This document shows positions 17,808 through 27,394 of a stretch of DNA of 32,077 nucleotides, one piece after another. Origin of the DNA: Anaerolineae bacterium. Lineage in GTDB: Bacteria; Chloroflexota; Anaerolineae; 4572-78; J111. The stretch covers positions 1 through 32,077 of the forward strand of contig JAFGDY010000200.1 of the NCBI GenBank assembly GCA_016931895.1, in the 5' to 3' direction. Within the stretch, counting starts at the first letter, position 1; each line of letters begins with the position of its first letter. Under the pieces are notes generated by a model, which saw nothing but the letters and a program-made list of their open reading frames with translations, was not told where the DNA came from and ran no database searches. The translations under genes and the position numbers were made by a program.

Positions 17808-17836
17808 TTGACTTCCCCCGCTCAATATGCTAAAAT
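17808..17836 (+). promoter_or_regulatory. Promoter of the T-box/thrS operon
   Basis: TTGACT (17808-17813) and TAAAAT (17831-17836) are separated by 17 nt. Transcription should begin near 17843, at the left edge of the T-box leader. Confidence 0.75.
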
Positions 17837-17842
17837 GCCCTC

Positions 17843-18119
17843 AAGAGTTAAAGCGTTGATCAAGACGAGTAAGCGACCGCAGACGCGCCAGAGAGAAAAG
17901 GCCATTGGCTGAGAGCCTTTTTCGCCGAGCGCCGTTGAAAACCCCTTGAGAGCGAGTCTCTGAACGCCGTCACCCGGTTAGTATGAGGCTCCGGCTGGCC
18001 TCGTTATTGGCCGTTAATGAGGGTAAAACGTAAGGCGCATTTTACGTTTTACCAAAATTGGGTGGAACCGCGTGGAAAATCAACCCCTCGTCCCAAAATG
18101 GATGAGGGGATTTTTATTT
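17843..18119 (+). promoter_or_regulatory. T-box riboswitch leader, threonine (ACC specifier)
   Basis: A T-box leader senses uncharged tRNA and lets transcription pass only when charging is low. The conserved T-box TTGGGTGGAACCGCG is at about 18058-18072; its TGGA would pair with the tRNA 3' end. Stem I carries the AGTA S-turn (about 17869) and GAA-A-ACC at 17937-17943, so the specifier codon is ACC (Thr, 17941-17943), matching thrS in the operon. A perfect 12-bp stem III lies at 18022-18053 (GGTAAAACGTAA/TTACGTTTTACC). A terminator stem with a T-run follows at 18084-18118. The control is transcriptional. The specifier assignment rests on the GAA context and on agreement with thrS, not on a full covariance fold. 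Confidence 0.93.
18084..18118 (+). terminator. T-box regulated terminator
   Basis: CCCCTCGTCC (18084-18093), loop CAAAAT, GGATGAGGGG (18100-18109) form a 10-bp stem with one G-U pair, followed by ATTTTTATTT. The T-box sequence upstream can pair with the 5' arm to form the antiterminator. The Shine-Dalgarno GGAGTG of the first gene begins 2 nt after the T-run. Confidence 0.9.
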
Positions 18120-18129
18120 GGAGTGAAAA

Positions 18130-18681
18130 ATGGCGAAACGAAAAAGAAAATCGGGAGAGGGTTCAAAACTGCATCCCATCAAAGATTACCGCAACGATGA
18201 ATACGTGCCTTACATCTTCAAAGCCGAAACCGGCATTTTGCAAGCCTGGGCCATAGAATCGGACATTCGAGACGGCGATGTGCGGCAGGCTTTGCGCGGG
18301 CTGATTTCATCGTTGGAAAAAACCGGGGAAATGCCCAAAATCCTGGCCCAAAAAATTGAAACTCCGCCGGAAAGTATCGAGGTGCAGGGAGACAGCCCCG
18401 AAACGATACTGAAGAGTTTTATCCTTAACAATTTAGCCCTGGCTTTTACCGAACATGGCCCGCTGGCAGCCAAAGATTTGGCCGGGGTGCTGCGGGTGAT
18501 CAATGGTTCGGTAGGAACCTGGAACACCGGCATGCACCGGCAAGGATACCTTAACTACATCAAAGGATTTTTGGGAGGTATGGGCGTCGGCGCGCGCAGG
18601 CTCACGCCTGAAGAAGTCGAGGCGCTGGGTTTGGAAAAGTCAAAAGATGCCATAGAAGGAGAAGACGATGAAACTGAATGA
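18130..18681 (+). CDS. Unknown protein, first gene of the threonine T-box operon
   Basis: I do not recognise a family. The 183-residue soluble protein has a very basic N-terminus (MAKRKRKSGEG), then an alpha/beta-looking stretch (EYVPYIFKAETGILQAWAIE), a helix (DVRQALRGLISSLEKTG), a Pro/Glu-rich linker near residues 75-95 and a second helical part (ILNNLALAFTEHGPLAAKDL and VGTWNTGMHRQGYLNYIKGF). It ends in an acidic tail. No signal peptide or membrane segment is seen. The start ATG follows GGAGTG by 4 nt, directly after the T-box terminator. Its end overlaps the thrS start by 14 nt, so it should be translationally coupled to thrS and induced by uncharged tRNA-Thr. That context suggests a job in Thr-tRNA supply, translation or the threonine stress response, but this is inference. 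Confidence 0.88.
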   Translation: MAKRKRKSGEGSKLHPIKDYRNDEYVPYIFKAETGILQAWAIESDIRDGDVRQALRGLISSLEKTGEMPKILAQKIETPPESIEVQGDSPETILKSFILNNLALAFTEHGPLAAKDLAGVLRVINGSVGTWNTGMHRQGYLNYIKGFLGGMGVGARRLTPEEVEALGLEKSKDAIEGEDDETE

Positions 18682-20455
18682 ACGGGAAAAAGATAGATTA
18701 TACAAACTGCGCCACAGTTTATCACACGTAATGGCCCAGGCCGTGCTGGAGATGTTTCCCATGGGCAAAATTGCCATTGGCCCGCCCATTGAGGATGGTT
18801 TTTATTACGACTTTGACCTGCCGCGCCCCCTCACCCCGGAAGACCTGCAAAATATTGAAAAGCGCATGCGTAATATCATCAAACAAAAACACATTTTCCA
18901 CCGCCGCGAGTTGAGCGCAGCAGAGGCCAAGGAATTGTTTGCCGACCAGCCTTACAAAATTGAATTGATTGAGGGCCTGGAAGCCGGCGGCGTGGACGAG
19001 TACGGCGAATCCACCAACGAACCGCCCATCATCAGCACTTACAAACACGATACCTTTGAGGATTTGTGCAAAGGCCCGCACGTTGACAACCTGGGCGTCA
19101 TCAACCCCAAAGCCTTCAAATTGCTCAAAACCGCCGGGGCCTACTGGCGCGGCGACGAAAAACGCGAGCAGTTACAGCGTATTTACGGCACCGCTTGGGA
19201 GTCGCGGGAAGAACTTGAGGCTTATTTGCACCGTTTAGCAGAGGCTGAAAAACGCGACCACCGCCGCCTGGGCCAAGAACTGGACCTGTTCAGCACCGAA
19301 GCCGACATGCTGGGAGGCGGGCTGGTTTTGTGGCATCCCAAGGGAGGCTTGATGCGCCACCTGGCCGAAGAATTTTGTAAAGAAGAACACCTGGCCCACA
19401 ACTACGATCTGGTCTACTCGCCCCATATTGGCAAGAGCACGCTGTGGGAAACCAGCGGCCACCTGGATTTTTACCAGGAATCTATGTACGCGCCGCTGGA
19501 CATTGAGGGGCAAGAATATTATCTCAAACCAATGAACTGCCCTTTTCACATTTTAATGTACAAAGACCGCCTCCGCAGCTACCGCGACCTGCCGATGCGT
19601 ATGGCCGAGTGGGGCACGGTGTATCGTTTTGAGCGCAGCGGTGTGCTGCACGGTTTGCTCCGGGTGCGCGGCTTCACCCAGGACGACGCCCATCACTTTG
19701 TTCAGCCCAACAAAATGCCGGAAGAAATTGACTTTGTTCTCAATTTCTGCCTGCACATCCTGCGCAGTTTTGGCTTTACCGATTTCCAGGCTTACCTCAG
19801 CACCCGGCCAGAAGGAGATAAAGCCGTGGGCGACCCGGCCCAATGGCGCGACGCCGAACAAGCCCTGGAAGACGCCCTCAAACGGGTGGGCATTCCCTAC
19901 GATATTGACCCCGGCGGCGGCGCTTTCTACGGGCCAAAAATTGATCTAAAAATCAAAGACGCCCTGGGCCGCGAGTGGCAGCTCAGCACCATTCAATTTG
20001 ACTTCAACCTGCCGGAGCGTTTTGACATGACCTACATTGGCGAAGACGGCCAAGCGCATCGGCCCTATATGGTCCACCGGGCTTTGCTGGGTTCTATGGA
20101 GCGATTTTTTGGGGTGTTGATTGAACATTACGGCGGCGCGTTCCCGGTCTGGCTGTCGCCCGTGCAAGCCGTGCTGATTCCCATTGCCGACCGGCACGTG
20201 ACCTACTGCGATGAAGTGACCCGGCGTTTAAAAACCGCCGGCCTGCGCGTGGATGTGGATGCAGGCAGCGAGCGGATGGGCAACAAAATCCGCCTGGCGC
20301 AGCGGCAAAAAATCCCCTACATGCTGGTGGTTGGTGATAAAGAGCAGGAGGCCAAACAGGTATCGGTCCGTTTGCGCAGCGGCGAAGATTTAGGCCCCCA
20401 GGATATTGCCGCGTTTGAAAGGATGGCCCTGGAAGCGGTTAAAAATAAAACGTAA
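18668..20455 (+). CDS. thrS: Threonyl-tRNA synthetase lacking the TGS domain
   Basis: This cytoplasmic enzyme charges tRNA-Thr and edits Ser-tRNA-Thr. It has 595 residues against about 640 in E. coli, because it begins at the editing domain and the N-terminal TGS (N1) domain is missing. The editing site is complete: H16/H20 (HSLSH) and C134/H138 (CKGPH). The class II core has the zinc ligands C291 (MNCPFH), H342 (QDDAHHF) and H470 (HRALL), motif 2 (RFERSGVLHGLLRVRGF) and motif 3 (ending SMERF). A C-terminal anticodon-binding domain follows (about 490-590). AAGGAG lies 5 nt before ATG 18668, inside the preceding gene. The operon is under a threonine T-box. A second, much shortened ThrRS-like gene follows 32 bp after the stop. 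Confidence 0.98.
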   Translation: MKLNEREKDRLYKLRHSLSHVMAQAVLEMFPMGKIAIGPPIEDGFYYDFDLPRPLTPEDLQNIEKRMRNIIKQKHIFHRRELSAAEAKELFADQPYKIELIEGLEAGGVDEYGESTNEPPIISTYKHDTFEDLCKGPHVDNLGVINPKAFKLLKTAGAYWRGDEKREQLQRIYGTAWESREELEAYLHRLAEAEKRDHRRLGQELDLFSTEADMLGGGLVLWHPKGGLMRHLAEEFCKEEHLAHNYDLVYSPHIGKSTLWETSGHLDFYQESMYAPLDIEGQEYYLKPMNCPFHILMYKDRLRSYRDLPMRMAEWGTVYRFERSGVLHGLLRVRGFTQDDAHHFVQPNKMPEEIDFVLNFCLHILRSFGFTDFQAYLSTRPEGDKAVGDPAQWRDAEQALEDALKRVGIPYDIDPGGGAFYGPKIDLKIKDALGREWQLSTIQFDFNLPERFDMTYIGEDGQAHRPYMVHRALLGSMERFFGVLIEHYGGAFPVWLSPVQAVLIPIADRHVTYCDEVTRRLKTAGLRVDVDAGSERMGNKIRLAQRQKIPYMLVVGDKEQEAKQVSVRLRSGEDLGPQDIAAFERMALEAVKNKT

Positions 20456-20487
20456 CCTACCCCAGACTTCAGCCAAAAGAGGGTTAT

Positions 20488-21021
20488 ATGAGCAGCCAAA
20501 AAAACAACCAAAACCTCCAACTCTACAAAATCCGCCATAGCCTGGCCCACGTAATGGCCCAGGCCGCGTCGGAGCGCTTTAACCTGAATTTTATCAATTC
20601 CGAAGGCCAGGAGGAAACGCCGTTATGCATCCATCGCGCTCCATTGAACACGCACGAACGGATGATTGGCTTTTTGATTGAACACTACGCCGGTAAATTC
20701 CCGGTCTGGCTTTGCCCGGAACAGGTGCAGATTGTGCCCATCACCGAGGTCCACAATGAATATGCGCTGCAACTCAAAAAATGTCTGCAAGATGCCAAAA
20801 TTCGAGCCCAAGCCGATTTGGGCGCCGAGCGGATGAACGCCAAAATTCGCCAGGCCCAGTTAATGCAAGTGCCCTACATGTTGATCGTCGGCGACCGGGA
20901 GATGGAAAACGAGACAGTCTCCCTGCGCCGGCGAGATAATACCCGGCAGAATGACCTGCCGGTGGCAGAATTTATCACTACCACGCAAAACTGCATCACT
21001 ACGCGTTCCGGCGAGTTGTAG
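20488..21021 (+). CDS. ThrRS-derived mini-protein: motif 3 plus anticodon-binding domain
   Basis: A 177-residue paralogue of the adjacent thrS product. Residues 12-28 (LYKIRHSLAHVMAQA) match the first helix of the ThrRS editing domain, including HxxxH (H17/H21). After about 20 unrelated residues, alignment resumes at IHRAP (H49, equivalent to zinc ligand H470) and continues through a motif-3-like segment (ERMIGFLIEH) and the whole anticodon-binding domain (FPVWLCPEQV, AERMNAKIRQAQ, VPYMLIVGD). Roughly 425 residues are missing between the two blocks: the editing cysteine site, motifs 1 and 2, and the zinc Cys and first His. It cannot aminoacylate alone. It has its own AGAGGG Shine-Dalgarno sequence and an intact frame with many substitutions relative to ThrRS, which argues for a maintained gene rather than a fresh pseudogene. 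Possible roles are tRNA-Thr binding, regulation or partnership with ThrRS. Confidence 0.85.
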   Translation: MSSQKNNQNLQLYKIRHSLAHVMAQAASERFNLNFINSEGQEETPLCIHRAPLNTHERMIGFLIEHYAGKFPVWLCPEQVQIVPITEVHNEYALQLKKCLQDAKIRAQADLGAERMNAKIRQAQLMQVPYMLIVGDREMENETVSLRRRDNTRQNDLPVAEFITTTQNCITTRSGEL

Positions 21022-21045: not shown

Positions 21046-21094
21046 AAAAAGCCCCCCTCTGCGCAAACGGCGCAAAGTGGGGGCTTTTTATTTT
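21046..21094 (+). terminator. Terminator of the thrS operon
   Basis: GCCCCC (21051-21056) pairs with GGGGGC (21079-21084), with an inner GCGC-AAACG-GCGC hairpin, followed by TTTTTATTTT. A matching A-run precedes it, so it may act both ways. It isolates the thrS operon from the asd gene starting at 21129. Confidence 0.9.
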
Positions 21095-25719: not shown

Positions 25720-26235
25720 ATGAACTTATCAAATTTCTTTGGGCGATGGTTCAAAAAAAAATCGGGCCTCGAGGAACTTGCCCGGCGTATCAACCGCGCC
25801 GCGGAAAGCATCCTGGAAAATGAACAACTGACCGCAGACCTGGACGATGCCGCCGCCAAAGAGTTGCTTAACTGGGGCATTGCCTGGGCCAAACTCATTG
25901 CCCAACGCACCGGCGATTTGGATGACTCTAAGGCCCAAGCCGCAATGTCGCCTCAACTACAGGCGACACGCCGGTTGATGCGAGCGGTCAACAAGTGGGT
26001 CGTCAACCAGCAAGAAGGGGATACAGAAGGTAGCGCGGCAGCCCTGGCTCAAATTATTGAACAGGCCAATCTTATTAGCGTAAATTTTTCTGCCCCCAAC
26101 AACGAACGTGCGGCCTTTATCAGTCAACAAACCGAACATCCCGTACCGCCTCAACAAATGATTGTCAATTTACGCCGGTGGCTTGAAGATTTAAGCGGGA
26201 TAACGCCTCAAGGAGAACCCAATGACCAAACGTAA
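25720..26235 (+). CDS. Unknown helical protein, coupled to a PLD-like gene
   Basis: I do not recognise a family. The 171 residues are predicted mostly helical, with a basic amphipathic N-terminus (MNLSNFFGRWFKKKSG), a helix rich in Glu/Ala (LARRINRAAESILENEQ), a central WAKLIAQRTGDLDD segment, and a C-terminal helix (MIVNLRRWLEDLSG) before a short polar tail. No signal peptide or membrane segment is present. The Shine-Dalgarno sequence is weak. Its 3' end overlaps the start of the phospholipase D-like gene by 14 nt, so the two are translationally coupled and probably act together. No enzymatic motif is visible. A partner or regulator of the PLD-like protein is a guess from context only. Confidence 0.8.
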   Translation: MNLSNFFGRWFKKKSGLEELARRINRAAESILENEQLTADLDDAAAKELLNWGIAWAKLIAQRTGDLDDSKAQAAMSPQLQATRRLMRAVNKWVVNQQEGDTEGSAAALAQIIEQANLISVNFSAPNNERAAFISQQTEHPVPPQQMIVNLRRWLEDLSGITPQGEPNDQT

Positions 26236-27394
26236 AACGTCAGCCGCCTCACGAAGTCAAAATCGAATTATTACCCTGATGATAATTGGCATCCTGTTAA
26301 TATTTGCCTGCTACTATATATTTACCGGCGTTGACCCCCTGGGCCTATTTACGCCAACTGAGCCAACACCTCCGCCGCCGGCGATGGTCGGCAGCGGCGG
26401 CGATTGGTGGCAGGTCTATTTTACCGAGCCGCAGAAAGAACAAACCCTCGACAACCTGGCCGGCTCTATCCCTGAAAAGCTTATCAACCATATCCATAAC
26501 GCCCAAAAAACCATTCACATCGCCTCGTTTGAGTTTGATCTCACCCCTGTGGCCGACGCCTTGATTGACGCCCATAACCGCGGCGTGGAAGTGCAGTGGG
26601 TAACGGATGACGAGTATGGCCTTGAAGCTGACGCCGAAGCAGGGCACGGCCAATTCAAGATGCTCAAAAAAGCCGGGGTAGAAATCAAGGACGACGAGCG
26701 TGAAGCCCTGATGCACAACAAATTCTGGATTTTTGACGGCCAGACGGTTTGGACCGGCTCCACCAACATTACCGTAAACGGCAACTTCCGCAATAACAAC
26801 AACGTTTTGGTGATTGACTCGCCGGAAGTGGCCGCCATTTTTGAGCGCGAGTTTGACGAGATGTGGGCCGGAGAATTTGGGCCAACTTCCCCCTCAACCG
26901 TGAAAAACCAGACCGTGGTGATTGGCGGCACGCCCATCCGCATCTTTTTTGCGGCTGAAGACGAGGCCATCAGCCACCTTATCCCGCTAGTTGAAAATGC
27001 GCAAAAAAACATCCGCTTTATGGCCTTTTCCTTTACGCACGATGCATTGGGAGATGCGCTGCTGGATAAAGCCAAAACCGGGATAGACGTGAAAGGGATT
27101 TTTGAAACGCGGGGCAGCGAGACCGAGTACAGTGAAATGCCCAAGCTCTATTGCGCCGGCGTGCCGGTGCGCCAGGATGGCAATCCCCGCACTTTTCACC
27201 ACAAAGTTTTTATTATTGACGACCAGTTGGTGGTCACCGGCTCGCTGAATTTTTCAGAAAATGCCGACGAAAGCAACGACGAAAACGTGGTAGTGGTCAC
27301 CAATAGCGATATTGCCGCCCAATATCTGCAAGAATTTGAACGCCGCTGGATTGAAGCAACCGAGCCGGAGGCCGGGGAGATGAGTTGCAGATAA
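26222..27394 (+). CDS. Membrane-anchored phospholipase D-like protein
   Basis: A 390-residue protein with an N-terminal signal anchor (about 16-36, IITLMIIGILLIFACYYIF) and a Pro-rich linker. Two PLD domains follow, each with an HKD motif: H165-x-K167-x4-D172 (MHNKFWIFD, then GSTN) and H326-x-K328-x4-D333 (HHKVFIID, then GSLNF). Both halves together form one active site through a phosphohistidine. Family members cleave phospholipids or nucleic acids or transfer phosphatidyl groups; with an N-terminal anchor the catalytic part is probably outside the membrane, and an EndA/Nuc-like nuclease or a lipid enzyme is equally possible. GGAG lies 6 nt before the ATG. It overlaps the unknown upstream gene by 14 nt. 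Confidence 0.9.
   Translation: MTKRKTSAASRSQNRIITLMIIGILLIFACYYIFTGVDPLGLFTPTEPTPPPPAMVGSGGDWWQVYFTEPQKEQTLDNLAGSIPEKLINHIHNAQKTIHIASFEFDLTPVADALIDAHNRGVEVQWVTDDEYGLEADAEAGHGQFKMLKKAGVEIKDDEREALMHNKFWIFDGQTVWTGSTNITVNGNFRNNNNVLVIDSPEVAAIFEREFDEMWAGEFGPTSPSTVKNQTVVIGGTPIRIFFAAEDEAISHLIPLVENAQKNIRFMAFSFTHDALGDALLDKAKTGIDVKGIFETRGSETEYSEMPKLYCAGVPVRQDGNPRTFHHKVFIIDDQLVVTGSLNFSENADESNDENVVVVTNSDIAAQYLQEFERRWIEATEPEAGEMSCR

Follow-up and report, generated by a model that had tools for sequence, protein, structure and literature searches.

The threonine operon and its two ThrRS types

The window, i.e., the whole stretch of 32,077 nucleotides that was analysed from an Anaerolineae bacterium (contig JAFGDY010000200.1), carries on its forward strand an operon for threonyl-tRNA synthetase (ThrRS). 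A candidate sigma-70-like promoter, TTGACT-17-TAAAAT with an extended -10, is located at 17808-17836 and is a consensus match only (10 of 12 positions). It is followed by a T-box leader (17847-18098; RF00230, 109.4 bits, gathering threshold 93), which is overlapped by a predicted terminator stem at 18084-18109. The specifier codon, ACC for threonine, is at 17941-17943 as read from the model alignment. The stretch AAAACCCC is present in all five T-boxes (the window and genomes G006, G001, G002 and G005; loci beside the window L099, L102, L103 and L108) and puts the threonine codon ACC at the specifier. The first gene 3' of the T-box is thrS1 in G006, thrS2 in G001, and ORF183 in G002 and in the window. 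ORF183 (18130-18681, 183 aa, family unassigned) has no match in Pfam, NCBIfam or PHROGs profiles; by tblastn a 48% identical homologue is situated upstream of thrS2 in G002.

The next gene, thrS1 (18668-20455), codes for a complete ThrRS of 595 aa without a TGS domain (TIGR00418, 692 bits). Every editing, zinc, motif 2 and motif 3 residue checked by residue mapping is in place. Downstream is a short gene, delta-thrS2 (20488-21021), and an intrinsic terminator at 21046-21089 (RNA fold, z -2.64) closes the operon before asd. In G006, thrS2 is likewise followed by a GC-rich inverted repeat that has a T-run. According to a work cited in PMC2494555, B. subtilis likewise has two ThrRS genes under T-box control. 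Elsewhere in the window, positions 26222-27394 encode a protein with two PLD-like domains and a weak DISARM DrmC match below the cut-off.

In a 104-row tree of ThrRS sequences, made by a quick method with a midpoint root, thrS1 falls on the Bacillota side and thrS2 beside Bacteroidota, in two well-separated parts. Judged from these sequences, thrS1 and thrS2 are not recent duplicates and belong to different deep ThrRS clades. Genomes G001, G002, G006 and G007 possess both types; G003, G004 and G009 show thrS2 only, G005 and G010 thrS1 only, several of the compared genomes being incomplete. That relatives differ in the copy which they kept suggests redundancy of thrS1 and thrS2. Besides the window, loci L099, L102 and L103 show the two types side by side; thrS1 precedes thrS2 in the window and in G006, and follows it in G001 and G002. 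In five genomes of the class from family f37 (G245, G263, G345, G362 and G382) two ThrRS matches lie on the same strand at a distance of about 1.9 kb, a hint of a tandem pair in that family as well. The thrS2 type is present in many class members and in Poribacteria. In the tree the poribacterial copies (L020, L021, L022 and L025) branch inside those of Anaerolineae, and this placement suggests either transfer between phyla or binning errors.

The short gene and its product

The short gene is open throughout and encodes 177 aa. A Shine-Dalgarno-like AGAGGG was read directly at 20478-20483, and a similar AAAGAGG run precedes thrS2 of G006. The protein consists of the first HxxxH helix of ThrRS fused to motif 3 and the anticodon-binding domain, residues 1-26 being derived from the N-terminus and residues 29-177 from the C-terminal block. 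Aligned with thrS1 (44% identity) it gives two matches, residues 11-36 with the first editing-domain helix and residues 29-162 with motif 3 and the anticodon-binding domain. Pfam locates HGTP_anticodon at 79-165 (E 2.3e-25); tRNA-synt_2b is represented by its last 44 model positions only (residues 22-67). The match to the thrS model of NCBIfam spans model positions 422-562 of 565.

Residue mapping to E. coli ThrRS equates H17/H21 with H73/H77 of HxxxH, H49/R50/R58 with H511/R512/R520, and E138/R147 with E600/R609, i.e., the anticodon-domain residues are kept. D180, C182, H186, C334, R363 and H385 (E. coli numbering) are missing. The functions of these E. coli residues are those known from ThrRS structures. 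Measured against a functional ThrRS, R363 of motif 2 and the zinc ligands C334 and H385 are gone and only H511 is left, and the anticodon-binding domain is present together with R520 of motif 3. The remnant has lost motifs 1 and 2, two of the three zinc ligands and the greater part of the editing site, and should therefore be unable to make or to proofread Thr-tRNA. Profiles and mapping agree with the initial annotation, made from the letters alone, which had described a shortened ThrRS paralogue with HxxxH, motif 3 and anticodon-binding domain, and had rightly called the frame, the ribosome binding site and the key residues of both blocks intact.

In the AlphaFold model residues 71-177 have a mean pLDDT of 87-97 in blocks of ten residues. 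Residues 11-30 are below 50, and the first 70 residues or so are poorly predicted. A Foldseek search matched ThrRS structures. At most, the product would fold into an anticodon-binding domain preceded by a loose N-terminus; such a free domain might conceivably bind tRNA-Thr. A phage origin was considered and rejected, the PHROGs matches being to the C-terminal parts of full-length models (593-643 positions) of unknown function.

The parent gene and the deletion

The same-genus relative G006 has at the same locus an intact, full-length orthologue, the second ThrRS thrS2 of 608 aa, 79% identical to the remnant. Gene order there is T-box, thrS1, thrS2, terminator and asd; in the window it is T-box, ORF183, thrS1, short gene, terminator and asd. 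The N-terminal 26 residues of the short gene are closer to thrS2 of G006 than to thrS1, starting with MSSQKNNQ and MSNQQNNQ in the remnant and in G006, respectively. The wide divergence from the neighbouring gene noticed at the outset is real, and it exists because the short gene descends from a separate thrS2 lineage and not from thrS1.

Compared with thrS2 of G006 exactly 431 codons (1,293 bp) are gone, where about 425 residues had been estimated. The join, GCCGCGTCGGAGC at 20563-20575, is the single remaining copy of a 13-bp repeat which flanks the missing DNA in G006. In the latter the direct repeats GCCGTGCTGGAAC and GCCGTGCCGGAAC bound the missing part; they are identical in 12 of 13 positions, 1,293 bp apart and in the same codon phase. 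The same repeat pair is present in thrS2 of G003. When positions of thrS2 of G006 with a spacing of 300 bp or more are paired, only 6 of the 1,157,481 pairs are this alike, and four of these six would preserve the frame. A search for the missing middle segment elsewhere in the genome did not find it; the best match was thrS1 at 50%. This comparison bears out what had been proposed from the window alone, namely that a ThrRS paralogue suffered an internal deletion in frame.

We propose that a single deletion between the two direct repeats took these codons from thrS2, and with them motifs 1 and 2 and the bulk of both the editing domain and the catalytic core. The event would date from after this genome's lineage had split from that of G006, and came about probably by slippage or by RecA-independent recombination. 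In E. coli, short direct repeats are known to give rise to deletions independently of RecA (PMC5426353). Because both repeats share the codon phase, no selection is needed for the frame to be intact. As thrS1 in the same T-box operon would supply ThrRS, thrS2 was presumably redundant. Loss of a redundant copy is the most economical account of the short gene, and we are fairly confident that it is a young pseudogene, a thrS2 inactivated by deletion, and not a new kind of protein.

Could the assembly have produced the deletion? The dominant genome would then have an intact thrS2, and the short gene would be an assembly error or stem from a minor strain of the metagenome. The assembly, G000, is indeed a draft of 320 contigs with an estimated contamination of 4.7%. 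However, no piece of the missing middle was found elsewhere in it, and the contig runs through the locus with conserved neighbours. Further, the k-mers usual in short-read assemblers are longer than the imperfect 13-bp repeat. We consider such an artefact very improbable. A fusion of thrS1 with thrS2 by recombination, for which the tandem arrangement and 18 bp (CACGTAATGGCCCAGGCC) common to both genes at the HxxxH helix could be quoted, can be dismissed: thrS1 is complete and upstream, the start of the remnant is of the thrS2 type, and both 5' ends are present.

Possible constraint on the remnant and comparison with known systems

The retained 149 codons differ between the window and G006 by a dN of 0.13 and a dS of about 1.7, NG86 dS being close to saturation for most pairs. 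A codon model with 12 thrS2 copies yields an omega of 0.061 overall, and of 0.082 on the window branch versus 0.060 in the background, a difference which is not significant. On the window branch an omega of 1 is rejected (2dlnL 17.5) and the likelihood profile allows values up to about 0.19, for one strain and 149 codons with high dS on a tree with several weak forks. In the retained block 2 residues depart from conserved positions (0-7 in full-length copies) and 6 are unseen in other copies (0-12 in full-length copies). The short gene has accumulated no stops or frameshifts. On the assumption that it has evolved neutrally from the deletion onwards, this event dates to about the last 15% of the branch. 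Taken as sequence evidence, the low omega would mean either a recent deletion or a remnant still under constraint; both fit, because nearly all substitutions can predate the deletion.

Among 12 genomes of the family the second ThrRS type is long in all seven others that carry it, those of G007 and G003 being partial where the gene meets a contig end. Residues 26-177 of the remnant are 70-79% identical to these family members. The same short architecture was absent from the 12 family genomes, from 25 genomes of the order and from the matches listed for 396 genomes of the class. In the class, too, the thrS2 type is of full length among the matches listed; the shorter frames checked there, in G330 (170 aa), G382 (202 aa), G342 (352 aa) and G354 (426 aa), all end at contig edges and were rejected. 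A conserved stand-alone synthetase-like family, which would have the same architecture in several genomes, is not what is seen.

The initial annotation had suspected an old deletion kept by selection, and had named frameshifts, neutral dN/dS or a lack of homologues as signs of a decaying pseudogene. An old age is unsupported, considering that G006 has the gene uncut at this locus and considering the lack of another short version among the matches listed. Retention by selection is unsupported as well: the phase of the repeats explains the frame, and the low dN/dS equally fits a recent deletion. As to the signs of decay, frameshifts and stops are lacking and omega is far from neutral, a value that a recent deletion fits as well, and the matches listed contain no short-form homologue; by this last sign decay is the better reading.

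The foremost alternative to a decaying remnant is a stand-alone anticodon-binding domain which binds uncharged tRNA-Thr, in competition with thrS1 or with the operon's own T-box leader. It draws on the intact frame and ribosome binding site, on an operon with threonine T-box and terminator, on a well predicted domain with its conserved residues, and on the low omega. Yet the frame is accounted for by the repeat phase and the omega would be by a young deletion, some 70 N-terminal residues are poorly predicted, and the short form is confined to this genome among the matches listed. We regard it as unlikely. It also appears improbable to us that the deletion gave rise in a single step to a stand-alone anticodon-binding protein derived from ThrRS, one with tRNA-Thr as its ligand and a tuning effect on its operon's T-box. 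For a young pseudogene, the lesson is that in a shortened paralogue after a repeat-mediated, in-phase deletion an intact frame and a low dN/dS are no proof of function. As a gene, the remnant is probably nothing unusual: one of a redundant pair of synthetases, caught midway through its loss. Its surroundings are more interesting, i.e., a pair of ThrRSs from distant clades under one threonine T-box of which relatives keep different copies.

Several known systems invite comparison. ThrRS-ed, the Ser-tRNA(Thr) hydrolase of some archaea (NF011500, PRK14938), is a ThrRS paralogue without the catalytic core which has the anticodon-binding domain and a whole archaeal-type editing domain. The 177-aa protein aligns with the C-terminal region of this model (266-361 of 387; 49 bits versus a cut-off of 362). 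In contrast to ThrRS-ed it has only the first helix of a bacterial editing domain, with H73 and H77 kept out of H73, H77, D180, C182 and H186. The HisZ, PoxA and YbaK types are, like the window protein, synthetase paralogues missing a part. They are conserved families, whereas the window protein is the deletion product of one genome, and no relative built in the same way turned up among the matches listed. Two ThrRS genes per genome, as here, are present in Anabaena (T1 and T2), where T2 aminoacylates and dimerizes either with itself or with T1 (PMC4787780); the second copy in the window, in contrast, is without a catalytic core. The short gene is orthologous to full-length bacterial ThrRS (thrS, TIGR00418) of the thrS2 type of Anaerolineae and Poribacteria, from which it differs by the 431 missing codons; these include motifs 1 and 2, the zinc ligands C334 and H385 and the larger part of the editing domain.
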